Shown: piece after piece, positions 51,094 to 53,820 of the stretch
Numbering within the stretch: the stretch's first letter is position 1
Layout of the letters: each line of letters starts with the position of its first letter
Assembly (NCBI RefSeq): GCF_000383975.1
Contig: NZ_KB913019.1
Span: 62,001-126,000 of the forward strand
Length of the DNA: 64,000 nucleotides
Direction of reading: 5' to 3'
Source: Natronorubrum tibetense GA33
GTDB taxonomy: Archaea; Halobacteriota; Halobacteria; Halobacteriales; Natrialbaceae
The notes under the pieces: generated by a model
Told to the model about the DNA's origin: nothing
What the model saw: only the letters and a program-made list of their open reading frames with translations
Database searches by the model: none
Program-made: the position numbers and the translations under genes

Positions 51094-51885
51094 ATGACAA
51101 CTGACGCGGACGGAGAGCGCTTCGTGTCTCGATTTACCGACGGCAACGTTCTCGGGACGTGGGTTTCGATTGGCCACCCGGCCATAGTCGAAGCGGCCGC
51201 GAGAGCGGGATTCGACTTCGTTCTCATCGACACGGAACACACCACGATGAGTCTCGAGACCGTCGCCGAACTCGCCCGTGCGGCCGCTGCGTCGCCCGGA
51301 GAACTCGGGGTAATCGTCCGCCCCGCCTGGAACGACCCGGTCCGAATCAAACGGATCCTCGACATCGGGGTCGACGGGATTATGGTTCCGATGGTCGACA
51401 CGCCGGACGCTGCCACCGAACTCGTCCGGGCGACGCGGTATCCGCCCGACGGTGATCGCGGAATCGCGTCGGGTCGGGCGGCCGGCTACGGCCAGAATTT
51501 CGTCGACTACGTCGCGGAGGAGCACCGATCGTTGCTCACGATCGCACAGATCGAAACGCCCACCGGCGTCGAACACGCCAGCGACATCGCGGCGGTAGAC
51601 GGGATCGACGCGCTCTTCGTCGGACCCGCCGACCTCTCGGCGTCGCTCGGCGTCTTCGCCGAGTGGGACGGACCCGAACTCACTGACGCGATGGCGCGCA
51701 CTATCGAAGCCGGAGCGAGCGCTGGGACGCCCGTCGGCACGCTCACAGTTCGCGAAGCCGACGTCGAGGACCGCGTCGAACGAGGGTTCGACTTCCAAAT
51801 CGCGGGAAAAGACATGACGACGCTCATCGAAACCGGCGAACGAATCCGCGAAACGTACGAGGAGAGCGTCTCCCGACGCGAGTAA
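51094..51885 (+). CDS. HpcH/HpaI-family aldolase (citrate lyase beta type)
   Basis: A 263-residue class II aldolase, TIM barrel. GTWVSIGHPAIVEAAARAGF and FVLIDTEHT form the start with the catalytic His nearby, and IDALFVGPADLSASLG is the metal/substrate-binding signature. Family members cleave 2-keto-4-hydroxy acids, for example 4-hydroxy-2-oxoheptanedioate, to pyruvate and an aldehyde or semialdehyde. It is divergent from the CoA-transferase with a 177-base gap. The aldehyde product could be used by the local dehydrogenases. Confidence 0.9.
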   Translation: MTTDADGERFVSRFTDGNVLGTWVSIGHPAIVEAAARAGFDFVLIDTEHTTMSLETVAELARAAAASPGELGVIVRPAWNDPVRIKRILDIGVDGIMVPMVDTPDAATELVRATRYPPDGDRGIASGRAAGYGQNFVDYVAEEHRSLLTIAQIETPTGVEHASDIAAVDGIDALFVGPADLSASLGVFAEWDGPELTDAMARTIEAGASAGTPVGTLTVREADVEDRVERGFDFQIAGKDMTTLIETGERIRETYEESVSRRE

Positions 51886-51910
51886 ACCAGCACAGATCCC
51901 ACCGACGGTA

Positions 51911-51995
51911 CGGAAAGCCCCGGCGTCGTCGGGCGTAGCCCGACTGCTCGAGGGAGCAAAGCTCCCTCTCTGTTCACGCCGGGGAGGATGTCACA
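51911..51995 (+). ncRNA. Three-way-junction RNA structure, TnpB omega-RNA-like scaffold
   Basis: Between two convergent genes lies a compact, perfectly paired fold. The outer stem is CCCCGGCG (51918-51925) with CGCCGGGG (51977-51984). Inside are hairpin 1, GTCGGGC/GCCCGAC (51928-51934 with 51938-51944, loop GTA), and hairpin 2, GAGGGAGC/GCTCCCTC (51950-51957 with 51961-51968, loop AAA). It continues with AGGATGTCAC. The GC-rich end structure and the tail resemble the 3' scaffold of haloarchaeal IS200/IS605 tnpB elements (omega-RNA, sotRNA), which carries its guide just after the tail. No tnpB is present. A bidirectional terminator is the alternative. Confidence 0.45.
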
Positions 51996-52003
51996 CTGTT
52001 CTC

Positions 52004-53647
52004 TTACTCGTTCATCCAGACGCCGGACTGCGGCTCGTAGGGGTCAGTCGGAATCTCGACGAGCGTCGGACCGTCGCTCGCGATGGCATCGGCGACGGTC
52101 GCTTCGATTTCGTCCGGCGTCTCCGCCCGTTCGACGTCGATTCCGAGTCCGTCGGCGACGGTCGTGTACGAGACCGGATTCTCTTCCCAGCCGTACTCGC
52201 CCTCGTCCATCCGGTAGCTCCGCCCGGCTTCCTCGCTGATGATGGCGTAGTCGCTGTTGTTGAGGACGACGACGGTGACGTCGATCTCCTCGTCGGCCAG
52301 CGTGTGTAGTTCGTGAAGACACATCAGGAGTCCCCCGTCCCCGGTGAGCGCCACGACGTCCTGCTCCGGGTTGGCGACCTTCGCCCCGATCGCGGAGGGA
52401 ACTCCCGACCCCATCGTCGCCCACGAGCCCGGATTGACGTAATCCCGGGGCTCGTACGTCGGGAACATCACGAGCGTCCACAGTCGAAACCCGCCCGCGT
52501 CGACGGCGACGACCGCATCGCGGGGCGTTCCTTCACGGATCGCGTCCAGCGCCTTGACCGACGTAAGCGGCGCGTCCGACACCGCTCGTAACTCCTCGAG
52601 ACGCTCGTCGATCGCGTCTCTGGTCGCCTGCGCGCGCTCCGCCCCGTTTGCGCCGGAAATCGATCGTTCCGAAAGCGCGCCGTCGAGTTCGTCGAGCGTT
52701 CTGGCGGCGTCGGCGACGATTCCGACCGCTGGCTCGTAGCCGGTTCCGATGTCGTCGGCGCCGAGCGTCACGTGGACCAGTTCGTCCGGGACTTCGATCG
52801 ACCAGTTCTGCATGGTAACCGCGTCGAAGTCCGTCCCCACGCCGAGCGCTGCGTCCGAGTCGGCGATAAGTTCCTTCACGGCGGTTCCCGTCCCACCGCA
52901 CAGCACCCCGCCCATGAGTTCGTGCTCGTCGGGAAAGACCGCTTTCCCCTTATACGTGAGCACGACCGGCGCTTCAAGGCGTTCGGCGACCGCTCTCAAT
53001 TCGTCGCTCGCGTCGGCCGCTCTCGTTCCGCCACCGGCGATGATGACCGGACTCGAGGCTTCCGCGAGGAGGTCCGCCGCAGCGTCGACCTTCGCGTCGG
53101 GAACGCCGCTGAACGACTGACGTTCGACCTCGCCCCGTTCGGCGAGCGGGACATCCATCTTGAGGAAGTTTTTCGGGATGCCGATCCGGACGGGGCCTTT
53201 CGGGGCCGTCTGTGCGGCGTCGATCGCCGTCTGCAGTTCGGCGACGGTGCTCTGTGGCGTCTCGACGGTGATGTTCTCCTTGACGACGTTGTCGTAGGTG
53301 TCCGGCGGCGTCTCGTGGATTCCGTCTCCGCCGCGAATCTCCGGTTCGGTCTCGACGGCGATGTGCAGGAGCGGCGTGCAGTCGTTCAGTGCGTTTTTCA
53401 GCCCGTTCATCGCGTTCATATCGCCCGGTCCGGGGATGACCACTGTGGCGGCCATTCCGCCGCTGGTCTCCGCGTACCCCCACGCCTGATGCGAGACGGC
53501 GGTTTCGTGGCGAGCCATGACGAACTGAATATCGTCGCGTTCGCTGATACTCTCGTTTAGCGGGAGCGACTGTTTGCCCGGAATGCCAAACAGCGTGTCG
53601 ACATCGTTCTCAGTCAGACAATCGATGATTGCTTCGTTGACCTTCAT
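52004..53647 (-). CDS. ThDP-dependent decarboxylase/acetolactate-synthase-like enzyme
   Basis: A 547-residue enzyme with the three-domain layout of the acetolactate synthase/benzoylformate decarboxylase superfamily. The N-terminal Pyr domain has the catalytic Glu in ARHETAVSHQAWGYAE (~48-50). The central domain includes GVGTDFDAV and EPAVGIVAD. The C-terminal domain binds ThDP-Mg through GDGGLLMCLHELH followed by NNSDYAI (GDG-x(~26)-NN). The start at 53647 (MKVNEAIIDCL) is preferred to a longer extension. A broken homologue is at 8341-9040. The substrate is a 2-oxo acid, not further definable. Confidence 0.9.
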   Translation of the reverse strand: MKVNEAIIDCLTENDVDTLFGIPGKQSLPLNESISERDDIQFVMARHETAVSHQAWGYAETSGGMAATVVIPGPGDMNAMNGLKNALNDCTPLLHIAVETEPEIRGGDGIHETPPDTYDNVVKENITVETPQSTVAELQTAIDAAQTAPKGPVRIGIPKNFLKMDVPLAERGEVERQSFSGVPDAKVDAAADLLAEASSPVIIAGGGTRAADASDELRAVAERLEAPVVLTYKGKAVFPDEHELMGGVLCGGTGTAVKELIADSDAALGVGTDFDAVTMQNWSIEVPDELVHVTLGADDIGTGYEPAVGIVADAARTLDELDGALSERSISGANGAERAQATRDAIDERLEELRAVSDAPLTSVKALDAIREGTPRDAVVAVDAGGFRLWTLVMFPTYEPRDYVNPGSWATMGSGVPSAIGAKVANPEQDVVALTGDGGLLMCLHELHTLADEEIDVTVVVLNNSDYAIISEEAGRSYRMDEGEYGWEENPVSYTTVADGLGIDVERAETPDEIEATVADAIASDGPTLVEIPTDPYEPQSGVWMNE

Positions 53648-53820
53648 AGCGGTAGTGAGACCGAAGACAGTGTAAAGGTATAGGATCTCTCCTGAAAGAC
53701 AGTTCAATTTCCAGCGGTGGTCGTTGTGTGGGTCGCAACGCAGCCGTTGCTGAATCGTACGGTCGCGAAACTGGCGTCGCTGACGATATGCTTTTGTATC
53801 GGGCCTTGATGGGAGATATC

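Follow-up and report, generated by a model that had tools for sequence, protein, structure and literature searches.

A probable solo right end of an IS1341-type tnpB element between convergent aldolase and thiamine-diphosphate enzyme genes of Natronorubrum tibetense

The right ends and omega-RNAs of haloarchaeal IS1341-type elements have been described in Halobacterium salinarum, where the RNAs are called sotRNAs (PMC12558985). Leftovers of IS605-type elements that lack tnpB are also known: PATEs and terminal-only IS605 remnants in Haloquadratum walsbyi (PMC3119063) and a PATE-like sequence in Halanaerobium (PMC7290912). Their origin has been described as a deletion of the core by way of short repeats (PMC3119063, PMC7290912), and such repeat-mediated deletions are documented for the IS605-type elements of Haloquadratum (PMC3119063). 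The near-terminal palindromes of IS605 elements and PATEs are in turn the insertion sites of small mobile repeats, SMR-A, whose mobilization in Haloquadratum has been called enigmatic (PMC3119063). The subject of the present analysis is a three-stem fold on the + strand (51913-51994, the stems lying within 51918-51984) of a 64,000-nucleotide stretch of the N. tibetense GA33 genome, here termed the window (Table 1). With a probability of about 0.85, the fold belongs to a solo right end of 109 bp (51886-51994), derived from an IS1341-type tnpB element that once stood between an aldolase gene and a thiamine-diphosphate (ThDP) enzyme gene.

Table 1. Coordinates of the fold, its parts and its neighbours, numbered from the first base of the window
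Feature	Position	Strand	Detail or basis
HpcH/HpaI aldolase gene, upstream	51094..51885	+	PF03328, E 1.3e-40
Putative remnant of post-stop tnpB sequence	51886..51912	+	24/27 bases identical, ungapped, to L265/L291
Right-end hairpin P1 of IS200/IS605-type tnpB element, opened by insert	51918..51984	+	Pairing, covariation, 94% identity to the end of an intact element
P1 stem	51918-51926 with 51976-51984	+	9 pairs, innermost U-A
47-bp twin-hairpin insert (P2 51928-51944, P3 51950-51968) in P1 loop	51926..51972	+	Absent from right ends of close relatives
P2 stem	51928-51934 with 51938-51944	+	7 pairs, loop GTA
P3 stem	51950-51957 with 51961-51968	+	8 pairs, loop AAA
Conserved element tail AGGATGTCAC	51985..51994	+	Copies diverge after GTCAN; tail base covaries with 5' hairpin loop
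16-nt guide position	51995..52010	+	Native flank, antisense to 3' end of ThDP gene
Convergent ThDP enzyme gene, downstream	52004..53707	-	PF02775, PF00205, PF02776

The fold is very stable and is conserved by pairing. Folded alone, the + strand reaches -51.9 kcal/mol as against -37.9 +/- 3.6 kcal/mol for shuffled sequences (z -3.9), and 0 of 200 shuffles equal it; the minus strand of the same region gives z -3.25. Across 23 homologous copies standard pairs occupy 95.6% of the pair cells, two-sided changes are found in 10 of the 24 pairs, and the covariation score of 0.204 is matched by 0 of 500 shuffles and by no slid register. Covariation supports all three stems and is compatible with pairing in RNA or with the single-stranded DNA hairpins of transposition. 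The three perfectly paired stems with 3-base loops reported in an earlier note on this DNA, made from the letters alone, are thus confirmed, with the correction that the 8 bp ascribed to P1 fit its G-C part only. A scan of the whole window against Rfam returned nothing at gathering scores, so that no curated family accounts for the structure, and a tRNA/tmRNA scan found none.

The kinship of the fold is revealed by its copies. Three other good copies are present in the same genome, two of them at 93–94% identity. The 94% copy (C1:3935135) lies directly 3' of an intact 417-aa TnpB (PF01385, PF07282), which bears out the likeness to the 3' end of haloarchaeal TnpB elements that had been proposed; the 93% copy (C3:201481) is tnpB-less, like that of the window, and both stop at the same tail base as the window copy. 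The genome holds 30 PF07282 matches above the cut-off. The stretch between the aldolase stop codon and the fold also resembles sequence that follows tnpB: the match of 51886-51912 scores 45, whereas 300 shuffles reach at most 35 and 300 random 27-mers from the window at most 33. The description of the fold as a scaffold without a tnpB gene holds, as neither a TnpB HMM match nor a TnpB-like frame occurs in the 2.4 kb upstream. The left end seen in related elements (CTATCT followed by a palindrome) is likewise absent, and the conserved aldolase gene lies left of 51886. Three further loci of the same genome (L006, L008 and L009, contig C2) display plain one-hairpin right ends with no evident tnpB directly upstream, and two of them are near subtilisin/halolysin-like protease genes.

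The position between two convergent genes is as the earlier note gave it. The remnant starts straight after the aldolase stop codon and occupies nearly the entire intergenic gap; only 51995-52003, nine bases ahead of the ThDP stop codon, lie outside the element. The aldolase stop codon, TAA at 51883-51885, is native and sits at the junction with the remnant, and GAGTAA also terminates the 95% identical aldolase gene of the relative G005. Derivation of this stop codon from tnpB was considered and rejected on account of its conservation in G005, though its bases match the tnpB stop region too. The same convergent gene pair is found without the fold in 11 relatives, of which G005 is the nearest (95% protein identity for both genes) and the most distant stand at about 70%; the fold is therefore best regarded as an insertion-derived remnant. 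An attempt to reconstruct a clean empty site from G005 failed, the remaining intergenic spacer being unrelated in sequence. Together with the intact element whose 3' end is 94% identical, this comparison favours the insertion relic among the possibilities raised in the note.

Another of those possibilities was a terminator. A bidirectional terminator, or a 3' structure under selection for mRNA stability between the convergent genes, would suit very stable hairpins on both strands placed precisely between the two genes; however, no T-rich tract and no terminator-like site exist at the fold on either strand, and hence no G+C-rich hairpin followed by a T-run as in an intrinsic terminator. Moreover, the 11 relatives manage the same gene pair without any such fold, and its homologues by sequence are transposon ends. 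A selected terminator or stabilizer is scarcely credible on these grounds.

A solo right end could have arisen as follows. An element of IS1341 type (tnpB-bearing, of the IS200/IS605 superfamily) would have inserted between the aldolase and ThDP genes. A deletion would then have removed the left end and tnpB, its ends presumably meeting at a short sequence, GTAA-ACC, shared at the aldolase and tnpB stop codons, and the 3' tail of the element would have stayed behind to become the aldolase 3' untranslated region. The 94% identical element is not certainly the parent, as the window copy, in its left part and in the tail base C, more closely resembles the group of L160 and L265.

The three-way junction described in the note is present in the window copy but does not represent the basic plan of the scaffold: the two inner hairpins form an optional 47-bp insert. 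In close relatives the right end is a plain hairpin, CCTCGCCG-TTCA-CGGCGAGG. Locus L295 carries the extra 47 bp and L169, in the genome under study, is without it, their TnpBs being 93% identical; similarly, the L265-L269 group has the insert (the comparison is given as L266-L269) and L160 does not, with TnpBs 87–88% identical. Judging by presence and absence among these sequences, the three-way junction appears to be a simple hairpin whose loop holds an insert of 47 bp, a pattern compatible with gain or with loss. Twin-hairpin inserts recur elsewhere in the family: at the base of P1, with about 60 bp, in L308, L315, L328 and L340, and in the loop of the 5' hairpin, with about 55 bp, in L281 and L311. 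As a side observation, inserts of about 47–62 bp (or nested, about 110 bp) occupy loops or bases of IS605 end palindromes in L144, L145, L152 and L153 of the same genome and in L189, L281, L308, L311, L315, L328 and L340 of relatives. One type, with the ends TCGTTCG/CGGACGA, occurs in both orientations and in L189 is nested within the 47-bp type.

The completeness of the omega-RNA can be judged from a second region. Full-length copies harbour, about 80–175 nt upstream of the fold, GGAUAGGAGUAACGG and a small hairpin with the loop N-UGGC. In all 53 distinct sequences that have it, this loop can pair with the tail GUCA-N, the pair at N being G:C in 46, U:A in six and A:U in one. In the window, GTCAC of the tail (51985-51994) corresponds to the pseudoknot strand (TEM-like) and marks the element boundary. 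The window copy has no 5' core hairpin with GGAUAGGAGUAACGG; aldolase codons take its place upstream. As the 5' half is missing, and with it the partner of the tail, the pseudoknot is impossible there, and without it the copy should not load a TnpB. What it retains of an omega-RNA is the 3' right-end hairpin and the tail, both with homology to a tnpB element, and what it lacks is the required 5' hairpin loop; of an IS200/IS605 (IS1341) transposon it lacks tnpB directly upstream and the left end with its palindrome.

These findings weigh heavily on the suggestion, also made in the note, of a stand-alone guide RNA. Read-through from the aldolase gene would yield the scaffold followed by a guide that is antisense to the ThDP gene at its 3' end, and a TnpB would be supplied from elsewhere. 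The orientation, downstream of a + strand gene, is right, the stems are intact, and an intact TnpB element with almost the same 3' end is present in the genome; from 51995 onwards a guide would enter the ThDP gene in antisense, as had been noted. The missing 5' half, with the GGAUAGGAGUAACGG hairpin and the pseudoknot loop, nonetheless speaks against this reading, and the sequence at the guide position recurs exactly nowhere else in the genome (three matches with 2 mismatches, versus one for a control pattern). Furthermore, the TnpB of the 94% copy reads VVGDL, without the canonical RuvC-II glutamate, although activity is still possible: a rearranged site did not prevent a TnpB from being active (PMC10278001), and by this analogy a missing glutamate would be compatible with activity. 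On this evidence the window copy would not be a usable guide RNA, and a function in trans is highly improbable. Among 11 TnpBs of the genome associated with the GGATGTCA right end, 10 are missing the RuvC-II glutamate (L142, L144, L148, L151, L152, L155, L157, L158, L160 and L169), reading VGDL, VGNL, VSWP or VGAL in place of xEDL, and L161 retains it.

The solo right end is most likely a dead relic that has lost tnpB, the left end and the 5' half of the omega-RNA, and its present role would most likely be no more than that of a stable 3' structure in the aldolase mRNA. As a counterpoint, the three stems are still perfectly paired, which need not be so in a long-dead copy; this could reflect a recent origin or some residual function at the RNA or DNA level.

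The window sequence is found in 19 of 61 genomes (its own and 60 relatives) at E <= 1e-6; the matches often directly follow tnpB and involve at least three tnpB subgroups. A covariance model of the fold has matches in 118 of 125 family genomes at E <= 1e-4, of which the weak ones may be due to chance. G095, G102, G103, G105 and G129 also contain tnpB elements that are intact and have this type of end. A census was taken of 82 copies, namely 80 of the strongest full-length covariance-model matches, the window copy and L002. The upstream tnpB is intact in 21, broken in three, a fragment in three and absent in 55, as judged by a profile built from 25 TnpB proteins of the genome under study, which very divergent remnants could escape, and with two loci (L276 and L324) near contig ends. 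An exact search with the tail gave 120 mixed matches, many by chance in unrelated bacteria, and these were left out of the counts. The 5' core is kept in 24 of the 55 tnpB-less copies, and loop and tail are complementary in 23 of these; the other 31 include copies truncated like that of the window and may include some from subgroups with a different 5' part.

Several tnpB-less copies have evidently moved. L285-L289 occupy five sites with different flanks in three genomes (G103, G104 and G105); they are 98–99% identical over about 480 bp, and their edges, CTATCTT on the left and GGTCAC on the right, are sharp and shared; L282/L284 (96%) and L296/L297 (98%) behave in the same manner. Element boundaries were taken from these families, and the near-identical pair L157/L158 shares its left flank too. 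The stem of the core hairpin covaries in tnpB-less non-coding copies (score 0.396, 0 of 500 shuffles), and TnpA-like genes were detected in six of six genomes tested. L285-L289, L275, L282, L284, L296 and L297 are mobile tnpB-less elements of about 330–480 bp in which both ends and the whole pseudoknotted omega-RNA are preserved, and each copy has a different would-be guide. Terminal-only, PATE-like copies exist as well: in L179 and L317 (G009) and L190 (G020) a left end, CAGCGAGAGARTCCCG, runs straight on into the right-end palindrome and tail, and the 47-bp insert is present. In the N. tibetense genome TnpA (PF01797) has only three matches (C2:224409, C2:26782 and C2:225648), two of which contain stop codons, as against the 30 of TnpB.

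The window copy itself might be taken for a miniature mobile element of PATE or MITE kind moved by TnpA in trans. The second tnpB-less copy at 93% identity, the sharp-ended mobile families of tnpB-less copies in relatives and the PATEs known in Haloquadratum (PMC3119063) are in keeping with this. Yet the window copy is missing the left end (CTATCTT and a palindrome) common to those families and to the intact tnpB element, and differs from the 93% copy in its left junction; moreover, near-terminal palindromes at both ends, as found in PATEs together with the lack of a coding gene, are reduced here to that of the right end. A miniature element is accordingly very unlikely.

A tentative and rather doubtful extension of the solo right end reading concerns the family as a whole. 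Many tnpB-less elements may be guide-RNA-only transposons, in which both ends and a pseudoknotted omega-RNA would be kept under selection, TnpA would act in trans, each insertion would acquire a new guide, and TnpB, presumably used in trans, would be borrowed for retention at, or copying back into, sites that have been left. The window copy would then be a decayed member, and the twin-hairpin inserts a small mobile unit specialized in the hairpin loops of omega-RNAs. Complete nuclease-free copies are common and have spread, and these possible guide-RNA-only transposons are an interesting lead. No description of complete omega-RNAs in nuclease-free haloarchaeal mobile elements was found in the literature searched; as most subscription literature lay outside the search, the novelty of the lead is not established.

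The window copy is ordinary in kind: it was correctly spotted and over-interpreted as a possible guide RNA. It matters little in itself, and illustrates that a transposon end can resemble a free-standing guide RNA; the comparison with its relatives is of greater consequence. The pairing of loop N-UGGC with tail GUCA-N offers a precise test that tells complete haloarchaeal omega-RNAs from dead ends.

Set beside the sotRNAs of H. salinarum (PMC12558985), the locus shares the right-end hairpin, the GAUGUCAN tail and the place directly after the tnpB stop codon, and full-length copies of the family also pair the loop of the 5' hairpin with the tail. In contrast to the sotRNAs, the window copy is devoid of tnpB and of the 5' hairpin, and hence of the pseudoknot, and its right-end hairpin is enlarged to a three-way junction by the twin-hairpin insert. 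Like the PATEs and terminal-only remnants of H. walsbyi (PMC3119063) and the PATE-like sequence of Halanaerobium (PMC7290912), it is a tnpB-less IS605-type leftover, but one whose left end is gone too, which makes it a solo right end. The 47-bp insert is comparable to SMR-A, by description and not by sequence: it lies within the near-terminal palindrome of an IS605-type element, varies in presence among close relatives (L169 and L160 are without it) and shows no obvious target duplication, whereas it measures 47 rather than about 110 bp and has no terminal inverted repeats that are clear by inspection.
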